60,538 nt of DNA from positions 1 to 60,538 of the IMG/VR virus record IMGVR_UViG_3300034374_004534. One strand, written 5' to 3'. Of this stretch, positions 45,013 to 60,538 are shown in pieces. Each line of letters begins with the position of its first letter. Position 1 is the first letter of the stretch. A program made the translations under genes and the position numbers. This DNA comes from a virus. A model generated the notes under the pieces. That model was not told the origin of the DNA, made no database searches, and worked only from the letters and a program-made list of their open reading frames with translations.

Positions 45013-45016
45013 GAAA

Positions 45017-45801: not shown

Positions 45802-45817
45802 GCTGGGGGCCGAAAAC

Positions 45818-45878: not shown

Positions 45879-45888
45879 TATCCAAATC

Positions 45889-46356: not shown

Positions 46357-46383
46357 ACTCAAACGACCTTATTACTCACTCTT

Positions 46384-46419: not shown

Positions 46420-46450
46420 TAGAGAGAGTTAAACCTTAAATCCCAAATCA

Positions 46451-46606
46451 ATGAATTTCAAGCATTCCCTCATCATGCGGTTAATCGATGAAATCGAAGG
46501 CATACTCGAAGCCAATGGATTCAACTCAGGCCTACCTGAAAATGAAGACCTATACGAGATTCAAATGGACTTGATTGCTCAGTCCGTCCTAATGGAAATC
46601 CGCTAA
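46451..46606 (+). CDS. Small acidic early protein (51 aa)
   Basis: This ORF is preceded by hairpin copy 1 and the CAAATCA motif. The protein has an amphipathic acidic helix (LIDEIEGILEANGF), then an acidic loop and a second helix ending LMEIR. No known domain. Many phage early proteins of this size inhibit host enzymes, but nothing specific can be said here. Confidence 0.55.
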   Translation: MNFKHSLIMRLIDEIEGILEANGFNSGLPENEDLYEIQMDLIAQSVLMEIR

Positions 46607-46615
46607 CCCCAAATC

Positions 46616-46786
46616 ATGAATCGGTACAAGTACTCCGACGTGCTCGGAATCCAAACTCACCTATACGCTCCAGAATTGAACGTGTTGGTGTTCAAGAACT
46701 TCGATGAGTTCCCATGTCCTCAAATCGTGGAGCCAAGAAAGGCATACGATTACTACGTAAAGAAATCTCAAACCCGTCACAAATGA
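46616..46786 (+). CDS. Small early protein (56 aa)
   Basis: It starts 9 bp after the 51-aa gene behind CCCCAAATC and ends with TGA inside the ATGA junction of the next gene, so it is translationally coupled to it. The protein is rich in Tyr, Phe and Asn (MNRYKYSDVLG, LVFKNFDEFP) with a basic end. No family is recognised. Confidence 0.55.
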   Translation: MNRYKYSDVLGIQTHLYAPELNVLVFKNFDEFPCPQIVEPRKAYDYYVKKSQTRHK

Positions 46787-47388
46787 AGAATCTTTCAGAC
46801 ATCAAAGTTCGCAAGGCTATGCGTTCCAACCTCCGTACGTGGTGGAATGAGGCAACCGAATTGGAACGTGAAGCGGGAGTCATTTGGTACTCCGAGGCTC
46901 AGGCCTTCGCCAAAGAGTTGTCAGTGCGTTTCAACGTGTCCCGTGAAGTGGCGGCAGGAGTCATCTCAGCCCTTTCTCCGAACAACAAGTGGGAACGCAA
47001 CAAAATCGATGCCGTTGCAGTGTTCGAGGCAGTTCAGGCAGGCGTTCCAATGGATCGTGTGAAGGTGTGTACCTACAATTCCAACAAGGAAAAAGCCTTC
47101 GAGATTGCCAAGGGCAACCAATCCATCCTGAAGCAGTCCCCCAAGACGTATGCCTTTGCAAGGAATGTGGGAGAGATGGACGAGGCCTTCGTCACCATCG
47201 ACAAGTGGCACCTTCGGGCTTGCCAAACCATCTCCAAGAAGCCCAAGGCATGCAAGGAATCGTGCACCGCGAAGCAGTACCGCCTACTGCAGGACGACTG
47301 CCTGAAGGTAGCCGCAGAGTACGGGGTCAGTGGCCACGTCTTCCAAGCCACCATTTGGACCACCATCCGAAACCGCTGGATGGCCTGA
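46783..47388 (+). CDS. Conserved phage protein with ALSPNNKW motif (DUF7178-like)
   Basis: The ATG at 46783 overlaps the previous stop (ATGA); an in-frame ATG at 46714 is less likely because it lies inside the coupled upstream gene. The 201-aa protein has GVISALSPNNKWERN (about residues 60-75), TYNSNKEKAFEIAKGN, KTYAFARNV and VTIDKWHLRA (about 135-145). I have seen these in phage proteins that may adopt a helix-hairpin-helix DNA-glycosylase-like fold. DNA repair or modification is a possibility, not established. Confidence 0.55.
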   Translation: MKNLSDIKVRKAMRSNLRTWWNEATELEREAGVIWYSEAQAFAKELSVRFNVSREVAAGVISALSPNNKWERNKIDAVAVFEAVQAGVPMDRVKVCTYNSNKEKAFEIAKGNQSILKQSPKTYAFARNVGEMDEAFVTIDKWHLRACQTISKKPKACKESCTAKQYRLLQDDCLKVAAEYGVSGHVFQATIWTTIRNRWMA

Positions 47389-47403
47389 CCATTAGTATCT
47401 CTT

Positions 47404-47439
47404 AGTACACACTCTCTTCATTTGTGAAGAGTGTGTACT
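47404..47439 (+). promoter_or_regulatory. Early-region hairpin, copy 2
   Basis: Same arms as copy 1 (AGTACACACTCTCTTCA and TGAAGAGTGTGTACT) with loop TTTG instead of GTTA; the bulge is also kept. Copies are 1020 bp apart and both sit just before a small gene. Confidence 0.75.
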
Positions 47440-47485
47440 TAGAGAAACTTAAAGACGAAATTCACCACCACAAAATTCAATCATC

Positions 47486-47773
47486 ATGCAGAACAGCACA
47501 CCACAATTCCGAGTGTTCAAGGTCAAGTTCCTTGGGCCTACCAATCACAAAGGTGCACGAATCGGTATCTCAGAACCGCGTGCCAAGAACCTCGAGGGAA
47601 TCAAGTCCCGCAAGGTCGTCTCCTACGACTACGCCATTGGAAACATCGTGTCTCAGGGAGTGAAGGAACTTGAGGATATGGGCTTCAACGTCACGGGGTA
47701 CGGAGCAATCGACGAAGATTCATACATCATCATGTGTGACAATTGGGGCGAAGATTTTGTTGAAATCAAATGA
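47486..47773 (+). CDS. Small early protein (95 aa)
   Basis: The protein has a beta-alpha-beta pattern: FRVFKVKFLGPTNHKGARIGIS, then KVVSYDYAIGNIVSQGVKELEDMGF, then a C-terminal strand with an acidic DNWGEDF. It follows hairpin copy 2 and a 46-nt leader. It may be a small DNA- or protein-binding regulator; no family is known. The next gene is coupled by ATGA. Confidence 0.5.
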   Translation: MQNSTPQFRVFKVKFLGPTNHKGARIGISEPRAKNLEGIKSRKVVSYDYAIGNIVSQGVKELEDMGFNVTGYGAIDEDSYIIMCDNWGEDFVEIK

Positions 47774-47919
47774 AACGCACCCTTAAATTCGTGACATGGG
47801 AAGGGAAGCTATGGTACGTAACCCGTGAGTTCTCCGACCAACGACACCTAGACAATTACGCCGCATACATGAAGCGGAACAAGCGAATGACACTTGACGA
47901 AGTGTACGAAACTCACTGA
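47770..47919 (+). CDS. Small basic early protein (49 aa)
   Basis: ATGA overlap with the preceding gene. The sequence (KFVTWEGKLWYVTREF, then NYAAYMKRNKRMTLDEVYE) has an N-terminal strand pair and a C-terminal helix. It is basic, 49 aa. No family is known. Confidence 0.5.
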   Translation: MKRTLKFVTWEGKLWYVTREFSDQRHLDNYAAYMKRNKRMTLDEVYETH

Positions 47920-47944
47920 AAATCAACGAATTAAATCAAATCAA

Positions 47945-48280
47945 ATGGCAACACGAGCAACCATCATTGTGGAGGGACAGCCCTCCGTGAAAGCATACAA
48001 GCACTGGGACGGGTACGAAGAAGCGACCCTGCCTTGGCTTGAGGAGTTCAACAAGACCTTCACAGATGCACGGGGCGACGACCCTGACTACAAACTTGCC
48101 CAACTCCTGCGGTCAAGCGCATTCGAAGCAGAGAAGTACAATCTCGACGCATCGAGAGCCACAGGTTGGGGTGTCGTCCCCATCGACGCAGATATGTGGG
48201 AGGAGTACGAGTATCACCTCCATGCAGACGGAAGCGTGTCCGTCAAGACAGGCAAAGACATCGAACGCAAAGCAAACTGA
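47945..48280 (+). CDS. Conserved phage protein with TRATIIVEG motif (111 aa)
   Basis: The start is the ATG after AATCAAATCAA at 47945; an upstream in-frame start would overlap the previous gene. The start ATRATIIVEGQPSVKAYKHWDGYEEATLPWL, then a region ending with EYHLHADGSVSV, is a pattern found in many phage hypothetical proteins (a 'YKHWDGYPE' motif followed by an acidic helix). Its biochemical function is unknown to me. Confidence 0.55.
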   Translation: MATRATIIVEGQPSVKAYKHWDGYEEATLPWLEEFNKTFTDARGDDPDYKLAQLLRSSAFEAEKYNLDASRATGWGVVPIDADMWEEYEYHLHADGSVSVKTGKDIERKAN

Positions 48281-48281
48281 C

Positions 48282-48614
48282 ATGAAGTACGCAAGACAAT
48301 GCTCCGTCACAGGAGAAGGCATGAACAATGGATGGGTCTTTGGAGATGGTGTGTTCTACGCCAAGTACGAGAAAGACGCCTTGGCTGAATGCCGCAAAGA
48401 CAGGGACGCTATCCTACGAGACATTGACACACTGACGTCAGAGGACATACAAGACCCCACATCGTGGTGGGAGTTTGCGTATGCGAGAGGCAGGGCCATG
48501 CAGGGCGCGGAAGATGACCATGACCTGATGACCATCGCGTTCCAGACGGACTACGCATACTACACGTCGTGGGAGGACCAAGACGACTACCAATTTGAAA
48601 CTCAAGAATTATGA
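48282..48614 (+). CDS. Early protein with CSVTGEGMNNGW motif (110 aa)
   Basis: The protein starts MKYARQCSVTGEGMNNGWVFGDG, a conserved-looking turn found in phage proteins ('C..TG.GM..G.v'). A helical acidic part follows, with Trp/Tyr-rich YAYYTSWED near the end. It overlaps the next gene by 4 nt (ATGA). It is one of five tightly coupled small genes. Function unknown. Confidence 0.5.
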   Translation: MKYARQCSVTGEGMNNGWVFGDGVFYAKYEKDALAECRKDRDAILRDIDTLTSEDIQDPTSWWEFAYARGRAMQGAEDDHDLMTIAFQTDYAYYTSWEDQDDYQFETQEL

Positions 48615-48835
48615 CTATCGAATCACATACAGACCTCGAAATCCGCGCTGACATCAGCGATTGCTTCAACAAGGGTAGCCTCGACGACTACCGACCAAGT
48701 GCGTACCAACTGCTCGTAAAGTATCTACGTCGGACTCACGGGTTCACAGACGATCATATTGACGAGGTAGTGGACCGACTCGAAGAGCAGGTAGCAGAAC
48801 ACATCATTGAAATCATCGAATCCAAGCAAGCATGA
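48611..48835 (+). CDS. Small acidic early protein (74 aa)
   Basis: ATGA-coupled on both sides. The protein is acidic and helical (LEIRADISDCFN, then LVKYLRRTHGFTDDHIDEVVDRLEEQ). It could be a small dimeric helical protein. No family recognised. Confidence 0.45.
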   Translation: MTIESHTDLEIRADISDCFNKGSLDDYRPSAYQLLVKYLRRTHGFTDDHIDEVVDRLEEQVAEHIIEIIESKQA

Positions 48836-49059
48836 CTAAATCAAACTTCCCCACCCTCGGCTCAGCCGTCCTGCACCTTAGCGGATATCACCACGGCGAG
48901 TTCCTCGACCGCTTGAACGTAGTCGCACGTCACGACCCAGAGTGGGTGCGCAACATCGCTGACATCATGATGGCGTTCGATTGGCAGAGCGAAGAGGAGA
49001 AAAAAATGATGCTCAAGTGGTCACTCAGGGAAAAATTCACACAAGCAGTAAACGCATGA
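48832..49059 (+). CDS. Small early protein (75 aa)
   Basis: ATGA-coupled with the genes before and after. It has LHLSGYHHGEFLDRLN, then EWVRNIADIMMAFDWQSEEEKKMM, giving a helical protein with an acidic middle and a basic end. No family recognised. Role unknown. Confidence 0.45.
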   Translation: MTKSNFPTLGSAVLHLSGYHHGEFLDRLNVVARHDPEWVRNIADIMMAFDWQSEEEKKMMLKWSLREKFTQAVNA

Positions 49060-49238
49060 ACAAGTCCACACTACAAGATTGCCTCGCCATGTTCGAGCGG
49101 CTCGACATCCACGCTGAAATCGAAGACGGGGCCATCCTCGTCCAGACCATCAACCCAGACGTGTACGTGCAAATCTCCAAGCAGGAAGTCATTTGGCGAG
49201 CAGACCAGTACCTCGAACATCAAAAACAAGAATCATGA
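49056..49238 (+). CDS. Small acidic early protein (60 aa)
   Basis: The start at 49056 overlaps the previous stop (ATGA). The protein alternates helix and strands (LAMFERLDIHAEIEDGAILVQTINPDVYVQIS), similar in rhythm to the next gene's product, so the two may be diverged duplicates. No known family. Confidence 0.45.
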   Translation: MNKSTLQDCLAMFERLDIHAEIEDGAILVQTINPDVYVQISKQEVIWRADQYLEHQKQES

Positions 49239-49447
49239 CACAAGAACAATGCGAACGCGCCGTCAAGGCACTACATGACGAAGGCTTCACTGCATCTTAC
49301 ATCCAAGGAGCACCTGACGACCACGGAGTGTGGATTGACATGGTGTGGAACGACGACATGAAGGATGCCTTCAACTTCCGAATCCACCCTGAAGAAATCA
49401 TCTTTTGGGAGTCCCATATCACCATCACACAACAGCAAAATGATTGA
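49235..49447 (+). CDS. Small acidic early protein (70 aa)
   Basis: The sequence CERAVKALHDEGFTASYIQ, then GVWIDMVWNDDM...FNFRIHPEEIIFW, has the helix-strand-strand order of the preceding gene's product ('L....i.a.i..g..l.v.......I...E.I.W'). It is ATGA-coupled to the gene before it and overlaps the next by 8 nt. Function unknown. Confidence 0.45.
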   Translation: MTQEQCERAVKALHDEGFTASYIQGAPDDHGVWIDMVWNDDMKDAFNFRIHPEEIIFWESHITITQQQND

Positions 49448-49598
49448 ACAACACACATTGGACCGCCTCCGTGAACGTCAGAAGTTTTCGGGTGGCTTCG
49501 AGACAAGCCTCATCGAAACCTACCTCAAGGCAGACGGAAACAACAAGCGTATACTCGAAGAGGCCTTCAGGGGCACAATGTTTGACCTGACGGACTAA
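49440..49598 (+). CDS. Small early protein (52 aa)
   Basis: The protein has RLRERQKFSGGFETSLIETYLKADGNNKRILEEAF, a helical pattern with a central GG turn. It is the last of the small coupled early genes before the structured RNA region. It overlaps the previous gene by 8 nt. No family recognised. Confidence 0.45.
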   Translation: MIEQHTLDRLRERQKFSGGFETSLIETYLKADGNNKRILEEAFRGTMFDLTD

Positions 49599-49607
49599 CG
49601 TATGAAA

Positions 49608-49671
49608 AAGGGAGCGCAGTCGGTGCGTACATCTACGGATGGCAGTTGTGTTCGAATCCCAACCTCCCTTC
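49608..49671 (+). tRNA. tRNA-like element 1 (degenerate or split)
   Basis: AAGGGAG pairs with CTCCCTT (7 bp); there is a D-loop-like AGTCGGT between CGCA/TGCG and a T-arm with the loop TTCGAAT and one mismatch. However, only about 18 nt lie between D- and T-arms, too few for an anticodon arm plus variable loop. It is therefore a truncated or split tRNA, or a tRNA mimic. Confidence 0.35.
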
Positions 49672-49826
49672 CTTACCGCCCCGAATGATTTGAGTCTCTA
49701 CCCTGTCTGGTGAGGTGGGGCAACCTGTCATGTAAGTGATTAAACTGGGTTTCGGCGGCGGCATGTTTGCATGAAAGTCCCCATTAAGGTTGTCAACGAC
49801 TGACGGCTCGGAAAGACGAGCACTAT

Positions 49827-49909
49827 GAGCGGGGAATCACTCTGGGAGTGCGGCGATGAAGGTTCGTCGTTAGAAATCCCCAACTGAGGTTCGAATCCTC
49901 CCCCGCTCA
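49827..49909 (+). tRNA. tRNA-like element 2, long-variable-arm type
   Basis: GAGCGGG pairs with CCCGCTC (7 bp), with A as discriminator base. The T-arm has GAGG-TTCGAAT-CCTC. The central hairpin GGCGA-TGAAGGT-TCGTC has a 7-nt loop, but position 33 is G instead of the universal T, and the D-arm is irregular. Thus it is a doubtful class II tRNA, a pseudogene or part of a larger RNA. CCA is not encoded. Confidence 0.35.
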
Positions 49910-49923
49910 CTTAATTCAATCAC

Positions 49924-50925
49924 ATGACATACGAAGAAATACTTGAAACCCCACCGCAACCCGTGGTGTACTCAATTGAATTCCCCAACGGAATGTTCTA
50001 CGTGGGGAGGAGTGTGGACGTGTCAAGGCGTGCGAAGAAGCACTTCCAAACATCCATGCTTTACAAGCACGACAACCTCGCAATGAACAGATGCTTCGTG
50101 AAGTACAAGGATGGGGTCGTGTGGGACATTGTACGATCGTTTGATAGCGCAGAAGATGCCATTGACTTTGAGTCAGCTTACATTGAGGAATTCTGGGATG
50201 ACCCCATGTTCCTGAACCAGAAACGTGGAGACAAGATTGACGCCTTGTACAATGAGCGTAGACACACCAAGCCTGTGTGGTACATGAACCCGTACACTGG
50301 TGGTATGTGGCGCGACGAAACAGCGTCGACCATGAGAAAGGTCATGGGTCATGCGGGTTACGGCAAGCCAAAGGGCTGGGGTCACATTGCAAAGGGCAAT
50401 ACTCCAGAAGAGTGCAGAACAGATGCAGAGCGCATCCTTAAACGTGACTTCAAAAAGCTGTGCATTCAGGTACACAGGAACTCCACTCCTACATGCAAGG
50501 CCATGTCTGAATCATACCTGAAGAAGCACAGGGAGAAGCTACGCATCAAGGCCATCAAACGCAAGATGATTGTGAAAGACCTAAAGACAGGCAGGGTGTG
50601 GCTATCCAAGAAGTCAGATCTAACTGGAGCTCAATCACGTGTGAGGACAGAAGGTGTCCGCCCATGGAGTGAGTACAGCGTGAGAGGATATGGTCAAGCA
50701 TGGCCTGAATTCAAGCCCGCCAAGCGGGGGTGGTGTGCCGCCCGTGCCGTTGTAGCCATAGTTCCTGACGGAACAGCGATCACATACGAAAGTGTGGGCA
50801 AGGCGGTGCGTGACCTATTCGAGGTGGAGGACAAAGCAAAGAAAAAGCATTTGTCCAAAGCCATTCGCCTTGCGATTAAACGCAACGGCAGTGCATACGG
50901 ATACAAATGGAAATACGAAAAATGA
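49924..50925 (+). CDS. GIY-YIG homing endonuclease
   Basis: A 333-aa protein. The N-terminal GIY-YIG domain (about residues 12-100) has VVYSIEF and FYVGRS (the GIY and YIG strands), SRRAKKH with the expected catalytic Arg, and EEF around the Glu position. The rest is basic with repeated DNA-binding-type segments (RVWLSKKSDLTGAQSR near 220-237, and ITYESVGKAVRDLF near 285-300) similar to NUMOD modules. Such enzymes cut intron-less or variant alleles and spread their own gene. It follows the structured RNA, a common arrangement for intron-linked or free-standing homing genes. Confidence 0.85.
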   Translation: MTYEEILETPPQPVVYSIEFPNGMFYVGRSVDVSRRAKKHFQTSMLYKHDNLAMNRCFVKYKDGVVWDIVRSFDSAEDAIDFESAYIEEFWDDPMFLNQKRGDKIDALYNERRHTKPVWYMNPYTGGMWRDETASTMRKVMGHAGYGKPKGWGHIAKGNTPEECRTDAERILKRDFKKLCIQVHRNSTPTCKAMSESYLKKHREKLRIKAIKRKMIVKDLKTGRVWLSKKSDLTGAQSRVRTEGVRPWSEYSVRGYGQAWPEFKPAKRGWCAARAVVAIVPDGTAITYESVGKAVRDLFEVEDKAKKKHLSKAIRLAIKRNGSAYGYKWKYEK

Positions 50926-51110
50926 GATACGATTCAATCATGAGTGCCAACCCACTCGATCACGAGTACCGTGTCAAGGTTGAGCACATCTTCAGGGAAG
51001 CTCCAGAAGCCTCGAAGCAGTTGGAGAAGCACCTGAAGCACTCACCGCAACTCAAAAGCGTAGTAGTCGACTGCGTGAACTCAATCTTTAATGCATCCAT
51101 CAATGGATAA
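50922..51110 (+). CDS. Small early protein (62 aa)
   Basis: The start at 50922 overlaps the endonuclease stop (ATGA). The protein has a helical, basic middle (RVKVEHIFREAPEASKQLEKHLKHSPQLK) and ends in a hydrophobic helix. No family is recognised. It overlaps the next small gene by 8 nt. Confidence 0.45.
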   Translation: MRYDSIMSANPLDHEYRVKVEHIFREAPEASKQLEKHLKHSPQLKSVVVDCVNSIFNASING

Positions 51111-51252
51111 AAACTACACACCCCAAACACAGGCGGAGCTATGCCTCGAATGGCTCTGCAATCAAATCAAGGGCTACGAATTCAAGGTAGAAGAACTTGG
51201 AGAGGACGTGGTCACAGTCATCAATCAAATCGTAAATCGTTACTCATCATGA
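51103..51252 (+). CDS. Small early protein (49 aa)
   Basis: The ATG at 51103 lies inside the end of the previous gene, and the stop forms ATGA with the next gene. The protein has CLEWLCNQIKGYEFKVEELGEDVVTVIN, a short helix then a strand pair; two Cys. No family is known. Confidence 0.5.
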   Translation: MDKNYTPQTQAELCLEWLCNQIKGYEFKVEELGEDVVTVINQIVNRYSS

Positions 51253-52097
51253 ACCCACTACAAAGCGCAAAGCAAGAGCTTGAAGCAAGCATCCGTTACT
51301 GCGAGAATGCTATGTCATCAGCGAAACAAACCATCGAATCAATGAAGAAGTATCAGCAACAGACAGGTCGTGAGGAGGCTCTCGAACGTGAGCTTGCAGA
51401 CATGACGGGGGAACGCAACGCTAGAGCCAAGCGAATTGTCGAGCTGAAGCAAGAGGTCAAGGACCTCAAGGTCGAGAACACGAAGCTCAATGACCGACTC
51501 ATGATTTCAATGAAAGAAGTTGGGCAACTTCAAAGTGAAGTCGATGAGCTTGAACACGCATACAACAACATGAAGCAATACGCTGACAGGCTTCTCGACG
51601 AGAACGTAGGGGTTGGCGAGGGCAACGAGGAACTCAAGACCAACATGGCCCTGATGACAGACGAGCTTGAAGAGTTGCGAGGCATTATTGACAGGATGGG
51701 CGACGACTCCACAGGAGATTCAGTCACCATCAAGCAGCTTCGTAGAGAACTCGACGAGTTGTCCAAGGCATACAAGGACTCCACCCACGAGGAGGTCACC
51801 ATGAAGAAAGCATGGCGTGAGCAACGTGAGATTGTAGCCCTGCGTGACGACCAGATTGCCATGCTTGAGCGACGACTCGCCAAGCAGACAGGAGAGAAGG
51901 CCTACCCGTTCAAGGAGGGCGACATCTACTACGTCTTCAACGGCCTCGACGGCACATGGATTGAGTCGGTGTGGGATGACGAGTCAGAACGCATCCACGA
52001 CAGCCCGAACATCCCAAGCCGCCCACACAGGGTGTACTTTACGGTCGATCAGAAGCACGTACTCGACCAATTCAAACCCGAAGATGTCAATGAATGA
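51249..52097 (+). CDS. Coiled-coil early protein (282 aa)
   Basis: Chosen start at 51249 (ATGA with the previous gene). Residues about 5-215 are almost entirely heptad-type coiled coil (KELEDL-like runs of Glu, Lys, Leu). The last 65 residues form a small domain with GDIYYVFNGLDGTWIESVWDD and HRVYFTVDQKHVLDQF. The fold suggests a rod with a beta-rich tip; it may be structural or regulate DNA transactions. No known family. Confidence 0.5.
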   Translation: MNPLQSAKQELEASIRYCENAMSSAKQTIESMKKYQQQTGREEALERELADMTGERNARAKRIVELKQEVKDLKVENTKLNDRLMISMKEVGQLQSEVDELEHAYNNMKQYADRLLDENVGVGEGNEELKTNMALMTDELEELRGIIDRMGDDSTGDSVTIKQLRRELDELSKAYKDSTHEEVTMKKAWREQREIVALRDDQIAMLERRLAKQTGEKAYPFKEGDIYYVFNGLDGTWIESVWDDESERIHDSPNIPSRPHRVYFTVDQKHVLDQFKPEDVNE

Positions 52098-52169
52098 CCT
52101 GACATTTCAAACAAACTCGTAAGGCAATAACCTTACACAACACAACGTAAACTACTTAAAATCAATACA

Positions 52170-52619
52170 ATGGAACTTAATTCAGCACAAAGAGAGCTCG
52201 CACGCCTCAAGGACAGCCTCATCAAAAGCCACGAACGCGGAATGCGCATTCTCGAAAAGACGATGGGCCGCGTAGGACACCACAACATGGTTCACACAAA
52301 GCACCTTGATAGAGCCATCATCAATCTTGAGAAAGAGAACGAACAACTTCGCGAAACCATTGACAAGCTCACTGATGAAATGCAACTCATCAAGAATCTC
52401 AACACGCCCAAAATCAAAAGTCGGTACAGGTACACTAGGGAAGAAATCGTAGAGGCACTTATTCAGGCAGAGGGTGTACGAGAGAGAGCTGCAGAAAACC
52501 TTGGGATCAACAAGTTCTCCCTGTATCGCTACATCCGAGTGATGGATATCAACGTCCCCACAAAGCGCCGCAAGAAAATCATCAACGGAGTGACCACATA
52601 CGTCAAGGTAAAATCATGA
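52170..52619 (+). CDS. Coiled-coil protein with Fis-type HTH (149 aa)
   Basis: The N-terminal 75 residues are helical with heptads (ELARLKDSLIKS, INLEKENEQLRETI). The C-terminal part has EEIVEALIQAEGVRERAAENLGINKFSLYRYI (about residues 92-125), a Fis/HTH_8-like helix-turn-helix. It likely binds DNA as a dimer and may control early or middle transcription. The hairpin GTAAGG-CAATAA-CCTTAC (52120-52137) lies in the preceding 72-bp gap. Confidence 0.6.
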   Translation: MELNSAQRELARLKDSLIKSHERGMRILEKTMGRVGHHNMVHTKHLDRAIINLEKENEQLRETIDKLTDEMQLIKNLNTPKIKSRYRYTREEIVEALIQAEGVRERAAENLGINKFSLYRYIRVMDINVPTKRRKKIINGVTTYVKVKS

Positions 52620-53044
52620 GACGCAGAACAAAAAGAATCAAGAAGCGGTTCCGAGTGCGCTTTCACTTGGGCAAGGGTGCAAACTACATGCACTGGCAGG
52701 TAACCGACCGAGGCATCATGTCAGACTCTGGCGATGCTCGTGAGTACTACAGCCCCGACAAGGTTGAGATTGTGATGCATGGTGCCAAGCTCGGTAACCA
52801 AGTGTCCACCGCTCTCAAAATCTTCGAGGGCGAGAACAAGACTGTGTGTGCTTGGGTTGAGTGCGACGCTGTTGACATCAACTACAAGGCCTCCAAGGTG
52901 TTCGAAGAGGCTGACGTCACGAACCTTGAGCGCATCATGTACAACCCACGTAAGAACCCGCATTGGTTCACCGAAGATGACCACAACATCGACGACAAAG
53001 AATTCAGAAAACTCACAACGAAACAAAACAAAATCTATGGCTAA
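52616..53044 (+). CDS. Conserved early protein with basic N-terminus (142 aa)
   Basis: It starts MRRRTKRIKKRFRVRFHLGKG, strongly basic, then a beta-rich core (NYMHWQVTDRG, VEIVMHGAKLGNQVST, TVCAWVECDAV). The pattern looks like an uncharacterised phage protein with a small beta-barrel-like fold. It is coupled by ATGA to the HTH protein. Nucleic-acid binding is possible given the basic start. Confidence 0.45.
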   Translation: MRRRTKRIKKRFRVRFHLGKGANYMHWQVTDRGIMSDSGDAREYYSPDKVEIVMHGAKLGNQVSTALKIFEGENKTVCAWVECDAVDINYKASKVFEEADVTNLERIMYNPRKNPHWFTEDDHNIDDKEFRKLTTKQNKIYG

Positions 53045-53402
53045 TTCACTCTTCTCCCTCCACGCTTACCTCAAGGAAGGCATCTGGATGTTCGACGACG
53101 AATCACGCAACATCAAGGAAGAGCCATTCGTGGCAGGTGCAGACATCATGTTCGACATCATGAGCGGACGTGAGGCCGATCCCACGATCGAGTCCTGCAG
53201 CATTGTGTTCGGTGCCACACCAATCCCAGATCATGACATTCACGTGACACTCTTCGACGAGGATGGTCACGATGGACACTTCTACTTGGTCGAGAAATTT
53301 AAGCAGTTCCCCGACATGAAGGGGTTCACCTTCTGGCTGTGCCCCGCACTGCTTCAGTTCTTTGAGATTGCACCTACAGACATCTTCGTATCCCTCAAGT
53401 AA
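53037..53402 (+). CDS. DUF6717-like protein (121 aa)
   Basis: The sequence GIWMFDDESRNIKEEPFVAGADIMFDIM (about residues 14-42), then SIVFGATPIPDHDIHVTLFDE and FWLCPALLQFFEIAPTDIFV, matches the arrangement of the DUF6717 family ('g.WvFDD...gL..EPFV.G.d.m', then 'f.a.p.p', then 'WLCPaL..yF...P..iyv'). Its molecular role is not known. It starts inside the previous gene's last codons. Confidence 0.65.
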   Translation: MANSLFSLHAYLKEGIWMFDDESRNIKEEPFVAGADIMFDIMSGREADPTIESCSIVFGATPIPDHDIHVTLFDEDGHDGHFYLVEKFKQFPDMKGFTFWLCPALLQFFEIAPTDIFVSLK

Positions 53403-53554
53403 TGCCCAAGCCTCCCAAGAAGCTCGGACTACCTCAGGGTAGGGCCGACCTCAACCACCCCAAGAACCAGCACTCTCCACGAGCCCGTCGCCGCAAGATG
53501 CAACGGTTCCTTGACAAGAACTTCCCAATCAAAGATTCAGAAAACAATGAGTGA
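53402..53554 (+). CDS. Small basic protein (50 aa)
   Basis: TAATG overlap with the preceding gene and an 8-nt overlap with the next. The sequence is Lys/Arg/Pro-rich (MPKPPKKLGLPQGRADLNHPKNQH, ARRRKMQRFLDKN). It may bind nucleic acid. No family is known. Confidence 0.5.
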   Translation: MPKPPKKLGLPQGRADLNHPKNQHSPRARRRKMQRFLDKNFPIKDSENNE

Positions 53555-53927
53555 TTACACAGGCCTCCTCCTGTCTGCCATGGAGTTCCCGCTAGACGAG
53601 GACCACCACGCAGACGTAGCCAAGAAGATGGTCATCAGCGACATAGAAAATATGGGCGACGAGGACTTTCTAACTCAGAAGTCTTCGGATATTTGCGCCT
53701 CTTTTATGAAGGTGTGCGTGGACTCATCCTACGAACAGCTCAACGAGATCAAGTCCATCATGGAGGCTGAGACAGAGCTAGACGATATGGGAGTCGGTGA
53801 TGATCAGACACGTGTGGATCTCTGGGCTGTTACCCGAGCCGTGCACAACAACTACTCTATGGGCATGTCCGTCCTTTCCCACTACATGCAAATCTTCGAA
53901 CATCTAAAATCCAAGTACTATGAATGA
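53547..53927 (+). CDS. Acidic helical early protein (126 aa)
   Basis: Start taken at ATG 53547 (MSDYTG). The protein is acidic with alternating helices (DVAKKMVISDIENMGDEDFL, EIKSIMEAETELDDM). No known family. It overlaps the DnaA-like gene by 8 nt. Role unknown. Confidence 0.45.
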   Translation: MSDYTGLLLSAMEFPLDEDHHADVAKKMVISDIENMGDEDFLTQKSSDICASFMKVCVDSSYEQLNEIKSIMEAETELDDMGVGDDQTRVDLWAVTRAVHNNYSMGMSVLSHYMQIFEHLKSKYYE

Positions 53928-54393
53928 ATTTCTTGAAGAGGTACGAGCCGAGTACGAAAAGCGGCAGGAGTACAAGATCAACCCATCCCGCCTTCGGGAG
54001 AACGTAGAGCACAAGGCTGCCATCTCCAATGCGGTGCGACCCTTCTCCACGTTCAAGGAGATTGGCAAGCTGTTCGACATGAACCACTCATCGATCGTGC
54101 ACTACAGCCGTGAGCACCTTGGCCTCATGCAGTGGTCACCAGCATACCGATTCAACTACGGTATTGCAATGGCCTGTGTGAAGAAAGTGTCAACGGACAT
54201 GGACGTCATCCCCCTCGACAACAGGTACATGGATGGCCACAAGCAGCTGAAACAGCTGGACAGTATTCTGGAATGGGTGACAGACATGCGGGAACAAGTG
54301 ATCGAAAAACTTGACGGAAAGTACAATGATCACTACATTTGCAATGTCGAAGACGAATCACCTCAAAACGTTGAGGGCAAACAAGACAACTAA
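53920..54393 (+). CDS. DnaA domain IV-like DNA-binding protein (157 aa)
   Basis: Residues about 30-70 contain KAAISNAVRPFSTFKEIGKLFDMNHSSIVHYSREH. The end of this has the order 'IG..F...HS.V.H..' of the DnaA C-terminal HTH signature, which binds DnaA boxes. There is no AAA+ ATPase domain, so the protein may mark an origin or compete with host DnaA. The rest is helical. It lies before the recombination and replication genes. Confidence 0.6.
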   Translation: MNEFLEEVRAEYEKRQEYKINPSRLRENVEHKAAISNAVRPFSTFKEIGKLFDMNHSSIVHYSREHLGLMQWSPAYRFNYGIAMACVKKVSTDMDVIPLDNRYMDGHKQLKQLDSILEWVTDMREQVIEKLDGKYNDHYICNVEDESPQNVEGKQDN

Positions 54394-54404
54394 TTCAATT
54401 CAAT

Positions 54405-54959
54405 ATGAACAACTACAAGTTCAAGACCACGAACATCCGTGGCAAGCAGTACGTTGAAGTCAACGAACGCATCAAGTTCTTCCGTCAGGAGGAGCAGTAC
54501 AAGAACTGGGGCATCCTCACAGACTTCCCCCTCATCGACTCTGATCAGTGCATGTGTGTGTGCTCTATCGTAACCCCCGAGGGTAACGTCGTATCCCAAG
54601 GCACAGCACACGAGGTGCGTAGTGCATCCAACATCAACAAGACCAGCTATGTCGAAAACTGTGAGACCTCCGCAATCGGACGAGCTCTTGCCATGCTCGG
54701 AATCGGTATCGACACTTCAATTGCGTCAGCTAATGAGGTTGAAGATGCAATCGCGCAGCAGCAGGCCATGGTCGACAACCCTCACGTCCAGAAGCTTAGC
54801 AAAGCTCTCGATGCGCCAGTCGAGAACATCATGGACAAAGCGGTGAACTACATCAAGGGTCAGGCTGACAAGCAGAAGGCCTTCGATTCTATCATGAAGA
54901 AGTACAGCTCTCAGCTTACTGAGAAGCAGGTTACGGGACTCAAGAAGTTCGTGCGATGA
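54405..54959 (+). CDS. ERF/Sak-type single-strand annealing protein
   Basis: A 184-aa protein with YVEVNERIKFFR (about residues 16-27) and INKTSYVENCETSAIGRALAMLGIGIDTSIASANEV (about 76-111), typical of ERF-like phage recombinases (the 'yvEn.ETsAiGRALa.lGiG' motif). The C-terminal 60 residues are helical and disordered. It would coat and anneal single strands, working with the PD-(D/E)XK exonuclease at 55377 and the SSB-like protein at 56209. It overlaps the next gene by 4 nt. Confidence 0.78.
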   Translation: MNNYKFKTTNIRGKQYVEVNERIKFFRQEEQYKNWGILTDFPLIDSDQCMCVCSIVTPEGNVVSQGTAHEVRSASNINKTSYVENCETSAIGRALAMLGIGIDTSIASANEVEDAIAQQQAMVDNPHVQKLSKALDAPVENIMDKAVNYIKGQADKQKAFDSIMKKYSSQLTEKQVTGLKKFVR

Positions 54960-55243
54960 GCAGCTGTTCTGTGAACAAGAACGGCATCTTCATAAGTATG
55001 GAAAATCGTGGTAAGGACAAGAAGCTTGTCCCTTGGGCTCTCATAAAGCGCGACGTGATCTATCCATCTGTGAGGCACTGCGTGTGCGAGGAGCACGGAA
55101 TTGACACCTACCTCGTAGATAAGTCGATAGCAGGCAACCGAATCCGTCGGTTGTTTGCTAGCGAACGTGAAGCACTCAAGGCTCTGGACATGTTCCTCAT
55201 CTCAAATGGGAAGGAACCCCGACACGTACTTAAGAGAGCATAA
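54956..55243 (+). CDS. Hypothetical small basic protein in recombination cassette (95 aa)
   Basis: ATGA-coupled to the annealing protein. The sequence (RDVIYPSVRHCVCEEHGIDTYLVDKSIAGNRIRRLFASEREALKALDMFL) has two close Cys and a final helical part. No known family. Its position suggests a role in recombination or replication. Confidence 0.45.
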   Translation: MSSCSVNKNGIFISMENRGKDKKLVPWALIKRDVIYPSVRHCVCEEHGIDTYLVDKSIAGNRIRRLFASEREALKALDMFLISNGKEPRHVLKRA

Positions 55244-55249
55244 TTAGAC

Positions 55250-55375
55250 ATGACTGAGTTAGTTCAGTGCAGCAGATGTTTAGCCATGCAGCAGGCAGAC
55301 ATCAGCGAAACGATAGCGATCACTTGTCATTTCTGCGGAGAAACTGACGCTGCATTTACAGAAGATTTTATTTAA
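55250..55375 (+). CDS. Tiny zinc-ribbon protein (41 aa)
   Basis: The product has CSRC near residue 7 and CHFCG near residue 28, enough for one zinc site, then an acidic end. It lies between the annealing protein cassette and the exonuclease with 1-6 nt gaps. A DNA-binding or protein-binding accessory role is likely, not proven. Confidence 0.6.
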   Translation: MTELVQCSRCLAMQQADISETIAITCHFCGETDAAFTEDFI

Positions 55376-55376
55376 C

Positions 55377-56138
55377 ATGAGAGAACAACTAAAAGCAGCC
55401 GTAGGCAAGCCACACCTGTCTTACTCGTCCCTGAAGTACGCACTCGGAGACATGAAGCTTTGGGAGATGTACATGCGGGGTCAGCTCAAGAAAGAGTCTG
55501 AAGCCCTGTTCTTCGGCAGCGTCTACGACATGTTGTTATTCGAACCAGAAAAAGCATATGAACAGTTCTACACCCTCGATGATACTAGCATTTGTGACAC
55601 TATTGGCGGCCGTAGTCCTCGGAGTACGAAGCGGTACAAAGAGTGGAAGGCAGAGGAAGCTGAGAAGGCAGGAGGTAAAGACTTGGTATCTCAAGAGGAA
55701 TGGAAAAAGGCGCATGAGATGATCCAACGCCTGAAGGATTGCGGTCTGTACGACAAGCGTTTTGCAGGTGGCAAGTATCAGGTAGAGTTCAACGTGGATC
55801 TCGATGGTGTTCCACTCAAGGGGTTCCTCGACTGCCTTCAAGAAGGTGACTTCATCGTGGACTCCAAGTCATCTCGTTCAGTAAGCAAGTTCCGCTACGA
55901 CGTGCGTGGCTTCAGCTACGACATTCAAGCGTACATCTACACCAAGGTCTTTGGCATCAAGGATTTCTGGTGGGTCGTGCAAGAGAAGAACTATCCGTTC
56001 TATCCTGCCGACGTCAAGTGTTCAGAAGAAACCCTCTTCAATGGAGAGATGAAGTTTCATCAAGCGGTCGAGAACATCAACAACTGGCTCAATGGAAACA
56101 AAGAAACAGTGGCCCACTACGCCGAGTTCGTTGTCTGA
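55377..56138 (+). CDS. PD-(D/E)XK exonuclease (recombination exonuclease)
   Basis: A 253-aa protein of the phage exonuclease type. LSYSSLKYALG (about residues 14-24) and FFGSVYDMLLFEPE (about 45-58) are the common N-terminal motifs. The catalytic core is GFLDCLQEGDFIVDSKSS (about 149-166; Asp152 and Asp162-Ser-Lys164) followed by YDIQAYIY (about 181-188), the Q-x-Y helix of RecB-type nucleases. It would resect dsDNA ends to single strands for the annealing protein. Confidence 0.82.
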   Translation: MREQLKAAVGKPHLSYSSLKYALGDMKLWEMYMRGQLKKESEALFFGSVYDMLLFEPEKAYEQFYTLDDTSICDTIGGRSPRSTKRYKEWKAEEAEKAGGKDLVSQEEWKKAHEMIQRLKDCGLYDKRFAGGKYQVEFNVDLDGVPLKGFLDCLQEGDFIVDSKSSRSVSKFRYDVRGFSYDIQAYIYTKVFGIKDFWWVVQEKNYPFYPADVKCSEETLFNGEMKFHQAVENINNWLNGNKETVAHYAEFVV

Positions 56139-56208
56139 CCGAGACAAGATCATAGCCACGGTCTTGTATCTACTATGGCTCTTTTTTTAACCCTATAATT
56201 TTTTAAGT

Positions 56209-56517
56209 ATGAGCGACAAGCAATACGACAGCGTACTCGTTGGGTACGCAGAGGAACCACGCTTCAACGAAGACGGTTCATTGAGAGACTGGTCAGTCCG
56301 TTTCAAGGACGCAGAACTCAAGGAGATGGTGGAGAAGTACGCCACCACACGCAACGAACAAGGCCAAGGGGGTAACCTCTACGTGACCATGTTCATGTCT
56401 AAGGGCGGTAAGGCATGCTGCCGAGTGTTCGACCCTAACAGCGCTGCTGCCAAGGAACGTCGTGCACAGAAGGAGGCCAAGGCCCCTGCCCAAGAATCAG
56501 ATGCCCTGCCATTCTGA
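56209..56517 (+). CDS. SSB-like protein with DALPF tail
   Basis: A 102-aa protein. The body is beta-rich (DSVLVGYAEEPRFNEDGSL, GNLYVTMFMSKGGKACCRVFD), compatible with an OB-type fold. A Lys/Ala/Glu linker ends in SDALPF. A short acidic tail ending in -PF is the hallmark through which SSB proteins recruit partners. It lies between the exonuclease and primase-helicase genes. I infer ssDNA binding; the OB fold is not certain from sequence. A 70-bp gap with a CAAGAT/GTCTTG hairpin lies upstream. Confidence 0.6.
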   Translation: MSDKQYDSVLVGYAEEPRFNEDGSLRDWSVRFKDAELKEMVEKYATTRNEQGQGGNLYVTMFMSKGGKACCRVFDPNSAAAKERRAQKEAKAPAQESDALPF

Positions 56518-56536
56518 TAAGGCACCCATCTATCAC

Positions 56537-56794
56537 ATGACCGCTCGTGTCGCCTTCAAGAAACGGAAGGTTGTACACGAGCGTGTTGTGTGGGTGGTAT
56601 CCGTCTTTGAATCACCTCATGACATCCGCAAGTACGACTACAAGACGATGTCCCGACTGGAACAGGAGCTCTACGGGAAGAACGCCAAGTCGGAGAAGCA
56701 CATCATGATCAGGGAGATTCTCACGAAGAAGTTTATCTCAAACTCAACACTTACTCTAGATGAACACAAGCAGCAAAATCAAGCAAAAGTGTAA
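56537..56794 (+). CDS. Small basic protein (85 aa)
   Basis: I chose the ATG at 56537 (MTARVAFKK), 19 bp after the SSB-like stop; an in-frame ATG at 56501 would overlap it. The protein is basic and has RVVWVVSVFESPHDIRKYDY, then a helical charged end. Its 3' end overlaps the next gene by 35 nt. Unknown role. Confidence 0.4.
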   Translation: MTARVAFKKRKVVHERVVWVVSVFESPHDIRKYDYKTMSRLEQELYGKNAKSEKHIMIREILTKKFISNSTLTLDEHKQQNQAKV

Positions 56795-57125
56795 GGAACT
56801 TGAGGACCTACTCCTCATGAAGAACTCAAAGTATGGAAACTCAGCGCTCGAACCGCTGAACGTTTTCTCAGAGGCGGGGGCGGTCGCAGGCATCAAGATG
56901 CGCATCGACGACAAGCTCAAGCGAATCAAGAATGCAGGTCTCGTTGACGCGACGGAGGATACGTTGCAAGACCTCGCTGGTTATCTCATCCTCCTCATGA
57001 TTGCGAAGGACAATGAAAGTAACGATTTTCAAAAACGTATTCGACAAAACCAACCCCCACGTGATCCATCTAAGCAAGGCGCTGGAGAGGATCAAGAGTG
57101 GGCGGTCGAGTACACTAGTATCTGA
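56760..57125 (+). CDS. DUF1599-like (MazG-type?) protein
   Basis: A 121-aa protein with LLMKNSKYGNSALEPLNVFSEAGAVAGIKMRIDDKLKRI (about residues 18-56) and TEDTLQDLAGYLILLMIA (about 64-82), close to DUF1599 or MazG-like nucleotide-processing domains, in which acidic residues bind Mg-nucleotides. Its last 113 nt overlap the start of the primase-helicase gene in another frame, unusually much. A nucleotide-pool or dNTP-related role is likely. Confidence 0.6.
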   Translation: MNTSSKIKQKCKELEDLLLMKNSKYGNSALEPLNVFSEAGAVAGIKMRIDDKLKRIKNAGLVDATEDTLQDLAGYLILLMIAKDNESNDFQKRIRQNQPPRDPSKQGAGEDQEWAVEYTSI

Positions 57126-58809
57126 GGTACGCGGCGGTAATAAAGACAAGAAGAAGGAGCTCCCTGTTGTATGTTTCAGCGGGGAGTTTTCGTCTCGTTC
57201 CGACGACGCTCTATTCGAGCACTCGGGTTTCATCGTATTGGACTTTGACCACGTAGATGTAGAAGCAACAAAGCAGTCTCTTGCTCACGACGACTTCATC
57301 CAATCGTGCTGGACCTCACCAAGCGGCGGGGGGGTCAAGGCTCTGGTGCGCATCACCAACCCAGAAAGACACAGGGATCACTTCCGATCTCTGGTCAAAT
57401 ACTTCGAACGCACCCACGGTCTAGAGCTGGATGAGTCTGGCATCAACGAGTCACGTGCCTGCTTCGAATCGTACGACCCCGACATCATCATCAAGGATGA
57501 TTACAAAAGATTCGGTCACTTCACCACTGAGTTTGCTGAAGCACAGACACCGACTAACGAGGCGTACGACTTTACTGACTACATGAAGCTAAACTTGGCT
57601 TGCCGTATGATTCGGCAGGCTGAGGATGGAGAGAAACACCGCATGCTTGTGCGAGCCTCCCGTCTGTGTGGTGGATTCATCGCTGCAGGAAGGATGGAGG
57701 AGGAGGAAGTAGTCAGGGTTCTTCACCGAGAAATATGCAAGAGGGATGTAGAGTCTGAGTCTCACGCCCTCAACACGATCCTTGACGGGATCAACTTGGG
57801 TAAGAACATGCCCATCAGGGAACTCGTTGACGAAGAGAAGTCAGCCAAGCGCGAGCTTCTCATCAACGACGGGGACATGTCCTTCATCTCCTCAGACGAC
57901 TCCGACTTCCGATGGATTGACGACTACTCACAGGGTAAGATTCAGTTGGGGCTCGGCACAGGTGATCCTAAGTTCGATGAGTTCTTCCGCTACAAGAAGG
58001 AGTTCCTCATTATCAACGGACACTCCAACGTAGGTAAGACCACTACAGCCCTGTACCTTATCGCAAACTCTGCCGTCCAGCATGGTTGGAAGTGGGTGAT
58101 TTACTCCTCGGAGAACAGGACCGCATCCGTAAAGATGTCTCTGATGCAGTTCGCCATGGACAAGAAGGTGGCAGACATGACCTACTCCGAGAGGAAGGAG
58201 GCATACAGCTGGGTGCAGGAACACTTCACCGTGATCAACAACGAGCAGGTGTACAGCTACGCAGACATCATCCTGTTCATGGAGAAGGTGATGCGGCAGC
58301 AGGATATCGACGCAATCTTCATTGATCCGTACAACAGCCTCAAGCTGGACATGAAGGGAACCAACATCGGCGTCCACGACTACCACTACGAGGCAGCCTC
58401 AGAATTCCTGACGTTCAGCAAGGCCAACGACATTGCCGTGTGGCTCAACTGCCACTCAGGTACAGAGGCTCAGCGCCGCAAGGGACCCGACGGTTTGCCC
58501 GTTGCTCCATATGCGGAGGACACAGAGGGCGGTGGAAAGTTCGTAAACAGAGCAGATTGCTTCGTTACTATTCACCGAAAGGTTCAATCAGCCGACCCTA
58601 ACATACGGAAAATGAGTGAGATACACGTCAGAAAGGTTCGTGAGGTAGAAACAGGCGGTGCGCCCACTCCATTGGAGGATCCGTACTGCTTAATCATGAA
58701 TCTTTCCCACACTGGTTTCACAACGAGAATCGGTCAAAGGGCTCTCTTCCAACCGATTAACTTTTTGGAGCAGGCCCAAATGCCCATGAACATCAACTTC
58801 CTAGGTTGA
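57013..58809 (+). CDS. Primase-helicase (VirE-N/primase-like plus DnaB-like ATPase)
   Basis: A 598-aa protein. The N-terminal domain (about residues 1-165) has VTIFKNVF, IVLDFDH (Asp77 and Asp79) and SPSGGGVKALV, as in VirE-N/BT4734-type primase-like proteins. The C-terminal domain (about 310-560) is a RecA/DnaB-type ATPase: Walker A NGHSNVGKTT (335-344), Walker B IDAIFIDPYNS (432-442), and CHSGTEAQRRKGPDG, a loop of the kind seen in replicative helicases. It would unwind DNA and may prime synthesis. The start at 57013 was chosen because the motif begins there. Confidence 0.8.
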   Translation: MKVTIFKNVFDKTNPHVIHLSKALERIKSGRSSTLVSEVRGGNKDKKKELPVVCFSGEFSSRSDDALFEHSGFIVLDFDHVDVEATKQSLAHDDFIQSCWTSPSGGGVKALVRITNPERHRDHFRSLVKYFERTHGLELDESGINESRACFESYDPDIIIKDDYKRFGHFTTEFAEAQTPTNEAYDFTDYMKLNLACRMIRQAEDGEKHRMLVRASRLCGGFIAAGRMEEEEVVRVLHREICKRDVESESHALNTILDGINLGKNMPIRELVDEEKSAKRELLINDGDMSFISSDDSDFRWIDDYSQGKIQLGLGTGDPKFDEFFRYKKEFLIINGHSNVGKTTTALYLIANSAVQHGWKWVIYSSENRTASVKMSLMQFAMDKKVADMTYSERKEAYSWVQEHFTVINNEQVYSYADIILFMEKVMRQQDIDAIFIDPYNSLKLDMKGTNIGVHDYHYEAASEFLTFSKANDIAVWLNCHSGTEAQRRKGPDGLPVAPYAEDTEGGGKFVNRADCFVTIHRKVQSADPNIRKMSEIHVRKVREVETGGAPTPLEDPYCLIMNLSHTGFTTRIGQRALFQPINFLEQAQMPMNINFLG

Positions 58810-58841
58810 TTTTCAAAATTTCTCTTGGTAACTTCGTTCAT

Positions 58842-59300
58842 ATGAAGAAGAGGACGAAGACTCCTAAGAGGCGTACATCCAAAAAAAAACATTTAGGAAG
58901 GTACGCTAGCTCCTTAGAGAAGTATTGTGCTGATCAGCTGAAAGAATACGGGTTAGCTTTCGATTACGAGGAGCATACCTTCGAGCTGATGGAGAAGTTC
59001 CGCTTCCCCAACAAGTACTTTAAGATGACTGCAAAAGGTAAGGAGATGGCAGACCGATCTGGGTCTGTCGTTCTCCCTATCACATACAAGCCCGACTTTG
59101 TTGGAAGGGATCATGACTGGATCATCGAGACCAAGGGGTATCTACCGTCTCACCATGACTTCCCCATGAGGTGGAAGCTTTTTATGAGACACCTAGTGGG
59201 CAATAACGCGAAAACCATTATATTCCTCGCCAAGAATAGTTCTCAGGTGGATCGAGCCATTCAAGAGATACTAGAATCGATCAAGAATGGAGACATCTAG
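58842..59300 (+). CDS. T7 endonuclease I-like Holliday junction resolvase
   Basis: Chosen start 58842 (MKKRTKTPKR), with a Lys/Arg-rich tail like other resolvases. The core has SSLEKYCADQL (Glu26), ITYKPDFVGRDHDWIIETKGYL (Asp85, Glu96 and Lys98) and a final helix. This is the PD-(D/E)XK order of T7 gp3-type resolvases, which resolve branched DNA before packaging and help degrade host DNA. 152 aa is typical. It overlaps the next gene by 14 nt. Confidence 0.75.
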   Translation: MKKRTKTPKRRTSKKKHLGRYASSLEKYCADQLKEYGLAFDYEEHTFELMEKFRFPNKYFKMTAKGKEMADRSGSVVLPITYKPDFVGRDHDWIIETKGYLPSHHDFPMRWKLFMRHLVGNNAKTIIFLAKNSSQVDRAIQEILESIKNGDI

Positions 59301-59535
59301 ACTCAGCGCCTACTACCTGATTGCTTGCGACAGAGTCCACCAAGTGGTGGATGAATTGTACGAGACCCTTCATAACGAGAAAGGAGAACCGATTCAGATT
59401 TCTGAGGCGGTCATCGATATCGTGGCCAAAAGTCGGAAGGAGATTTATGAAGAATTGGATATGATCAAATCAATCGTCGCAGAATATGAAGCTTTACAAA
59501 GTAGAGGTAACAACGGAGATGATCCGAAAGGCTGA
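59287..59535 (+). CDS. Small helical protein (82 aa)
   Basis: It overlaps the resolvase by 14 nt and the next nuclease gene by 50 nt. The protein is acidic and helical (ACDRVHQVVDELYETLHNEKGEP, KSRKEIYEELDMIKSIVAEYE). No motif. It may be an accessory to the nucleases on either side. Confidence 0.45.
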   Translation: METSRLSAYYLIACDRVHQVVDELYETLHNEKGEPIQISEAVIDIVAKSRKEIYEELDMIKSIVAEYEALQSRGNNGDDPKG

Positions 59536-60004
59536 GGAGAAGTCCAAGCTGCACGGAGACATCAAGAACAGCATACGCCGAGGCGATGGAAACATGGCCG
59601 CTTACATAGGCGAAGAGATGGCACTGAAGTTTCTCAGTGACGTCAAGGAGAAGAACACCTACGATTACGACATGATTCGGTTCCCCAATACACCATGGGA
59701 GCACACGATCGATGTCAAGACCAAAGAGAGAGGGGTGAGTAAAGCAGGCAAGGCCTACGTCCCTAGGGGTCACTACTCCGTCCACGTAACAGAGGCATCA
59801 CTGCACCAGAGGGTAGACACATACGTGTTCGCACAAGTGAACCGAGTCAAAGAAGGATATGAGGGGTGGATCCTAGGCTGGATGGATCGAGACGAATACC
59901 TCAAGAAAGCAGAGGTTGTGAAGGAGGGTCAGCCAGATGAGTATGGTAAGCCAGAAACAGCCGATGCTAGAAAAATGAAGATCTCAGAGATCATTCACTA
60001 TTGA
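59486..60004 (+). CDS. PD-(D/E)XK restriction-fold nuclease
   Basis: A 172-aa protein. AAYIGEEMALKFL (Glu43/Glu44) is followed by YDYDMIRFPN (Asp62) and TIDVKTKERG (Asp76, Lys78), then an H-V-T-E-A-S segment and GWILGWMDRDEYLKKA. That order fits PD-(D/E)XK enzymes of the restriction type. It may cut host or non-self DNA or act in DNA repair. It takes the place next to the 98-aa gene that nrdA takes at the left end of the window. Confidence 0.65.
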   Translation: MKLYKVEVTTEMIRKAEEKSKLHGDIKNSIRRGDGNMAAYIGEEMALKFLSDVKEKNTYDYDMIRFPNTPWEHTIDVKTKERGVSKAGKAYVPRGHYSVHVTEASLHQRVDTYVFAQVNRVKEGYEGWILGWMDRDEYLKKAEVVKEGQPDEYGKPETADARKMKISEIIHY

Positions 60005-60015
60005 TCTAGTTTTAT

Positions 60016-60095
60016 TATCTTTATATCGTTACACGGGTTAGTTGTCTGTGGAACTTCGCAATCGTCGAGAGGGGACTTCGGTCCCCTTTCTTTTT
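60016..60095 (+). ncRNA. Candidate short RNA, right copy
   Basis: TATCTTTA (60016-60023), a one-base variant of the -7 consensus, is followed by GTTACACGGG (60028-60037), GTGGAACTT (60048-60056) and a terminator. The order and spacing match the left copy (353-438), although flanking genes differ. The unit may give a 60-70 nt RNA or be a conserved 3' UTR. Confidence 0.33.
60070..60095 (+). terminator. Rho-independent terminator at the end of the early region
   Basis: Stem AGGGGAC/GTCCCCT (7 bp, extendable by two) with a TTCG tetraloop, followed by TTCTTTTT. It ends the plus-strand transcript before the convergent 98-aa gene copy. Confidence 0.9.
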
Positions 60096-60390
60096 ATCCT
60101 CGAAGGCGATCGTTCTCCTTCTCAAGGAACTCCAGACGCACCTTGTATTCAGCGAGCTCTGTCATCACAGCTGCGAGCCTATCAGACACTTCGTTCTTCT
60201 CTTTATATGCTTGCTCAAGCTTTTCCTCAAGCACGGCAACACGCTCTCTCAAATCGTCTCTAAATAGCGTTTGCTCGCCCTTATCCTCTTTGCGCTCTTG
60301 GTGTTTGAGCTTGAGTCTGCTCTGGTAAAACTGCCAAGCCCCAGCAGAGCCGAGGACAGTTACGATTGTGATGATTGTTTGAGGATCCAT
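60094..60390 (-). CDS. Membrane-anchored coiled-coil protein, second allele
   Basis: A 98-aa protein identical to the left copy except for 7 residues, all in the coiled coil between about 62 and 76. The N-terminal membrane segment is unchanged. Most of the roughly 65 DNA differences are silent, so both alleles are functional. It is probably the same locus from another strain. Confidence 0.6.
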   Translation of the reverse strand: MDPQTIITIVTVLGSAGAWQFYQSRLKLKHQERKEDKGEQTLFRDDLRERVAVLEEKLEQAYKEKNEVSDRLAAVMTELAEYKVRLEFLEKENDRLRG

Positions 60391-60538
60391 TATCTCCTGT
60401 AAAACTCTTCGTTAGAAACACGATACAAATTCCAGATGCTCATCCCACAGATCAGGATCCATCCCAAGTGTGAGCCTTGCATCATCCCTGCCGTCGTGTA
60501 GTTGGCGACAGTGGCGATTGAAATAATAGATGCGATTT
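60390..60538 (-). CDS. Membrane protein/possible holin, C-terminal part of second allele
   Basis: The last 48 codons and stop of the 127-aa membrane protein, cut by the window end (its 5' part lies beyond). Two base differences from 733-881 are visible. It is coupled by TAATG to the 98-aa gene, as in the left copy. Confidence 0.7.
   Translation of the reverse strand, partial: IASIISIATVANYTTAGMMQGSHLGWILICGMSIWNLYRVSNEEFYRR

Follow-up and report, generated by a model that had tools for sequence, protein, structure and literature searches.

Organization of the locus

The window analysed here, an entire virus record of 60,538 bases, began inside a gene. Positions 1-348 (+ strand) held the C-terminal 115 codons of nrdA (large subunit of class I ribonucleotide reductase), cut by the contig end. 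Profile searches matched the barrel domain PF02867 (E 1.6e-21, C-terminal part only) and TIGR02510 (E 1.4e-44), the latter below its cut-off as the gene is cut. Next came a small-RNA-like element (353-437, + strand) consisting of a box, TATATTTG (353-360), a core starting at 365 and a terminator-like hairpin reaching to about 434. It was followed on the minus strand by a 98-aa gene (437-733) and a 127-aa gene (733-1116). Hereafter, strain A denotes the native genome, with the allele found at the window end, and strain B the source of window positions 1 to about 788; the window followed strain A from about 789.

At the opposite end, the last plus-strand gene of strain A (172 aa, 59486-60004), which had no match in Pfam, NCBIfam or PHROG, formed the left border of a variable site. 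Beyond it were the A version of the element (60016-60095, + strand; box TATCTTTA at 60016-60023, core from 60028, terminator stem at 60067-60090), the native allele of the 98-aa gene (60094-60390, - strand) and the 3' part of the 127-aa gene (60391-60538, - strand), which in the true map continues at window position 882.

The 98-aa protein displayed a membrane segment, a coiled coil and a weak Rz/LysB-like match. Its TIGR03495 score (22.2 bits) fell short of the cut-off (92.75), and the protein was not assigned to the Rz-like spanins or LysB; matches were also recorded to PHROG 89 (E 9e-4) and PHROG 2658 (E 2.4e-7). The gene may work like Rz/LysB, and the label is used in this sense only.

The large terminase of the window was 40-48% identical to those of the Flavobacterium elemo phages and MW202828, which makes a Bacteroidota host likely. 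A tRNA-Arg gene (tct, 35115-35189, - strand), the sole tRNA gene found in the window, had the terminase region on one side and a small HNH-like gene on the other.

Divergent repeat at the two ends

When the window was compared with itself by BLAST, positions 428-881 matched 60084-60538 with 84.6% identity over 455 columns (E 1.8e-142). This end-to-start repeat was by far the strongest in the window, and the observation of an earlier note on this DNA, that the last 445 bp repeat 437-881, was thereby borne out. To the left of the repeat, weaker similarity extended out to about 351 and 60014, across the small conserved element, which the note does not mention. An ungapped recount agreed with the numbers given earlier: 65 mismatches separated the 98-aa gene at 437-733 from its end copy and 2 (at 747 and 788) were found in the next 148 bp (734-881), of which the last 93 bp were exact (789-881 and 60446-60538). 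Changes in the gene were indeed mostly silent, since 45 differing codons were synonymous and 7 were not (7 amino acid changes); mismatches per codon position were 12/3/50. From their sequences, both copies look like selected, working alleles. Among phage records, the repeat DNA found chance matches of 23-35 bases only.

Closure of the genome

Relatives of the 127-aa gene were taken from IMG/VR, and two of these contigs spanned the join between 60538 and 882 in ungapped alignments: L001 (3300025671_000107) over 16,381 bp with 11 mismatches (99.93% identity) and L003 (3300022187_006643) over 9,256 bp with 15 mismatches (99.84%). Each contained one copy of the repeat with the end allele, the gene at 60094-60390 being identical in both. 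Compared with the start copy, they displayed 80 and 83 mismatches, respectively, and the match stopped at 428. G001, the full record of L001 (47.5 kb), ran through 43939-60538 and then 882-31784, again with a single copy. All three joined both ends with no extra sequence, and the A arrangement was also found in L021 and L140. A full-length nrdA query had no match in G001 and matched only the tail at 1-345 in the window.

One-copy contigs across this join indicate that the native genome bears the end allele and has a map of 59,657 bp that is either circular or permuted. This supports the earlier proposal of a circular or permuted genome that closed on another strain. Closure data fit a circle as well as a linear genome that is permuted or derived from concatemers. 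Window bases 1 to about 788 are the tail of the second strain, B, which carries nrdA and whose left end in the contig lies inside that gene.

Probable origin of the join

The exact 93-bp overlap at 789-881 is the probable assembly join. Strains A and B would have an exact stretch of 93 bp or more in common, through which the assembly graph, or else a later merging of contigs, may have linked the B tail to the A genome; assembly would have halted once the other end of A reached this stretch. According to the authors of CheckV, the k-mer length of the assembler is common for contig end repeats (PMC8116208). In one JGI pipeline, assembly was run at k = 81, 85, 89, 93, 97 and 101, and contigs sharing 98% identity over 80 bp were merged afterwards (PMC5369317). 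In a comparable assembly, either step could link the B tail to A. A complete genome can look open when its end overlaps the copy of another strain, and a screen that also accepts end overlaps which are imperfect or lie inside the contig would bring complete genomes to light and reveal sites of strain difference.

Among the relatives, G005 (61,237 bp, with L112 and L113 as its two ends) displayed an exact 141-bp end overlap, and its cut lay about 150 bp away from the 98-aa gene; here, too, a circular-mapping contig was broken at this site. No end overlap was found in G002, G003 and G008.

Identity switch and probable recombination

Identity had been described as switching exactly at the start of the 98-aa gene, by recombination at a gene boundary. 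Since the join itself makes positions 789-881 exact, information on the switch can come from 437-787 only. In a one-break model of this interval, the best change-point lay at 620/621, inside the 98-aa gene, with 6.6% mismatch (93% identity) above and 29.9% (70% identity) below. The LLR was 16.9 at this position (permutation p 0.0005) and 8.6 at the gene start (733/734), so that the latter was set aside as the weaker breakpoint.

The relationships of B changed along the same interval. L013 was the sole relative among the records checked with both a full nrdA and the 98-aa gene. In 621-787, B shared 93.4% identity with A and 63.1% with L013, whereas in 437-620 the values were 70.1% and 79.3%. 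On the 5' part, A and B were sisters with support of 98/100, and grouping B with L013 was rejected (p-AU 8.7e-5), the alignment there being partly shared by construction; on the 3' part, holding A together with B was rejected (p-AU 0.018). A four-taxon site count including L013 and L014 placed the change of pattern at window 521-546 (permutation p 0.0002). These tests were based on about 350 bp and one B sequence.

Uniform divergence of B, with no recombination, would give a similar picture if the rise in identity came from conservation of the 127-aa gene plus the exact join. The 3' end of this gene was conserved in many relatives, the join by itself accounts for the exact 93 bp, and identity fell stepwise (90, 76 and 68%). 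Yet A and B differed at 7% of sites in 621-787, where other pairs averaged about 24-34%, and were on a level with other pairs in 437-620. Given the flatter profile of these other pairs, conservation alone explains the switch poorly, and the conflict between the clade tests of the two parts also argues against it. Uniform divergence is thus rather unlikely.

These data are best read as the trace of a crossover within the 98-aa gene that would have accompanied the nrdA cassette, the difference between A and B stemming from homologous exchange of a cargo cassette. The recombination proposed earlier therefore gained evidence, but its breakpoint moved away from the gene boundary to the interior of the 98-aa gene, at about 620 or, in the four-taxon count, at 521-546. 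A 31-mer of the B junction had no match in IMG/VR; the exact B junction was seen in this window alone, and the B tail could thus itself be a composite of several strains.

Away from this site, ten SNPs were concentrated in about 160 bp of a holin-like 145-aa gene (2727-2889), where L001 and L003 agreed with each other and differed from the window, the remainder being nearly identical. This looks like another small exchange tract.

Alternative explanations for the two copies

A linear genome with a true divergent terminal repeat, i.e. two differing end copies, was also considered in the earlier note. It would account for copies that lie near both contig ends and are both intact and selected, as well as for the clustering of contig ends near the site (10 of 21 within 1 kb versus 4.3 expected, p 0.001). 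Such clustering is expected where strains branch, and a physical genome end here would also produce it. Terminal repeat copies maintained via concatemers are expected to be identical, and these were 84.6% identical. Moreover, the start copy was not terminal, being preceded by 436 bp of other DNA including a gene cut in half. Above all, L001, L003 and G001 passed through the join with one copy, and G001 did so without nrdA. This proposal was not supported and is very improbable. Hardly any more credible is a single strain with a real internal duplication of the 98-aa region plus nrdA, the contig being a fragment of a longer genome: intact proteins from both copies and the adjacency of nrdA and the 98-aa gene in L013 would suit it, but the near-identical contigs, with their single copy, contradict it just as they do the terminal repeat, and the two copies end in exact register for circular closure with the same sequence following.

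The contig is thus best described as one turn of a circular-mapping, podovirus-like phage of Bacteroidota (strain A, 59,657 bp) with about 790 bp of strain B at its left, a reading to which we give a probability of roughly 0.9 and in which an assembly join and a cassette swap would account for the two copies. The unequal ends themselves are ordinary, reflecting assembly and strain variation; the interest lies in the swap locus and in the RNA-like element next to it.

A conserved small-RNA-like element

The element was found just after the last plus-strand gene in A, B and many relatives, next to the variable site. A TAnnTT box came first, followed by the invariant GTTACACGGG and a stem-loop formed by CACGG and CTGTG; TGTGGAAC-TTCGC and a terminator-like hairpin rich in GC completed the unit. 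The TAnnTT box occurred at a single spacing from GTTACACGGG in 14 of the 15 distinct copies, and one base further in L139. The full TAnnTTTG was not universal: A has TATCTTTA, and 5 of the 15 deviated further. In Flavobacterium, the sigma-A box TAnnTTTG is located at -12 to -5 (PMC9723704), a spacing that puts the predicted transcription start at the first G of GTTACACGGG. The stem could pair in all 15 sequences; its changes were one-sided only and offer no proof of it by covariation.

A pattern scan of IMG/VR retrieved 27 stretches, 25 of which were convincing by context; the other matches, in L137 and L142, were set aside as chance since they came without box, terminator or neighbouring genes. 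With a covariance model, whose matches include some of the sequences used to build it, the A version (60028-60095) scored 82.7 bits and the B version (365-437) 55.4 bits. The model also located the element beside nrdA in further loci, always one per record apart from the two of the window, and did not find it in G003, G005, G006, G017, G018, MW202828 or elemoA_7-9A. Rfam offered nothing convincing, its best match (E 0.56) being put down to chance, and none of the matches in phage records, all short and weak, spanned more than 42% of the element. Literature on phage small RNAs held nothing relevant among the matches listed.

With a promoter box at the right spacing, a terminator-like hairpin and conservation, the element is a candidate small noncoding RNA gene. 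It looks like a small-RNA-like unit of about 70 nt, probably transcribed separately, and is the least explained part of the locus; what stands beside the swap site resembles an unstudied small RNA.

Variable cargo at the site

The content of the site, between the 172-aa gene (the last gene of the plus-strand arm) and the convergent 98-aa gene, differed among relatives. Cargo was absent in A, L001, L003 and L014. It consisted of nrdA and nrdB in L013, B showing the nrdA tail, and of a 709-aa M43 protease in L002 (1618-3747). In L005 (5094-8005), L006 (8677-11594) and L008 (819-3730), a 635-aa M43 protease preceded a protein of 335-348 aa that bears a type-B sorting domain of type IX secretion. 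The 335-aa protein of L005 exceeded the cut-offs of this domain in both TIGR04131 (37.1 bits, cut-off 35) and PF13585 (55.1 bits, cut-off 27). Tails of the M43 proteins matched no profile and were type A-like by eye only. Going by contig names, samples 3300022187 and 3300030433 each contained one empty and one filled form. In most loci with M43 or type-B-tail cargo, a further TAnnTTTG box lay directly after the terminator, as expected of a separately transcribed cargo gene. In the INPHARED copy, M43 cargo had one partial match and the type-B-tail protein two; a search for a bacterial source of the M43 cargo gave only a 31% match, in Pleomorphovibrio.

The 6151 region of L146 (reverse strand) carried nrdAB and then M43 cargo akin to that of L002, with the GTTACACGGG core as their meeting point. 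It looks like a recombinant of an nrdA-type upstream half and an M43-type downstream half, and the position of its junction suggests that the invariant core also serves as a place of exchange.

Cargo (none, nrdAB, or M43 protease plus a type-IX-secretion-type protein) would travel with the swapped cassette, for which the core of the element may be the other homology arm. A wider proposal, possible though on balance doubtful, is that the junction is a dedicated locus at which Bacteroidota phages exchange cargo (ribonucleotide reductase, secreted M43 proteases), with a ~70-nt small RNA of an undescribed family providing one arm through its 5' core and the 98-aa lysis-type gene the other. To judge from the predicted proteins, these phages would here exchange ribonucleotide reductase for secreted proteases that would use the secretion system of the host.

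Comparison with known systems

The phage resembled the elemo phages (Elemovirus) and MW202828 in its terminase and in its genome size of about 60 kb. It differed from them in the 98-aa gene, for which the phage collection gave no match from these phages, and the RNA element distinguished it from MW202828 and elemoA_7-9A.

The join was comparable to the exact end overlaps considered by CheckV, in that an exact 93-bp end overlap exists since the template maps as a circle. Here, however, about 788 bp from another strain preceded the exact stretch and made it internal, so that a repeat test on the contig ends would miss the closure.

The closest parallel for the site itself was found in Cryophage and other cryoconite phages, in which a near-identical core is combined with genes that replace one another at fixed sites, a pattern ascribed to recombination (Bellas 2020, PMC7468147). 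Their modules include ribonucleotide reductase and type-IX-secretion cargo (PMC7468147). Like those flexible modules, or metagenomic islands, the present locus exchanges alternative cargo (empty, nrdAB and M43 types) at a fixed site between conserved flanks. Unlike them, it is a single site at a convergent gene junction in a different phage group of about 60 kb, it holds M43 proteases (type A-like) together with type B tails, and it is accompanied by a conserved RNA-like element. The cargo-swap locus is thus a fresh example of an already described phenomenon, that of flexible modules.
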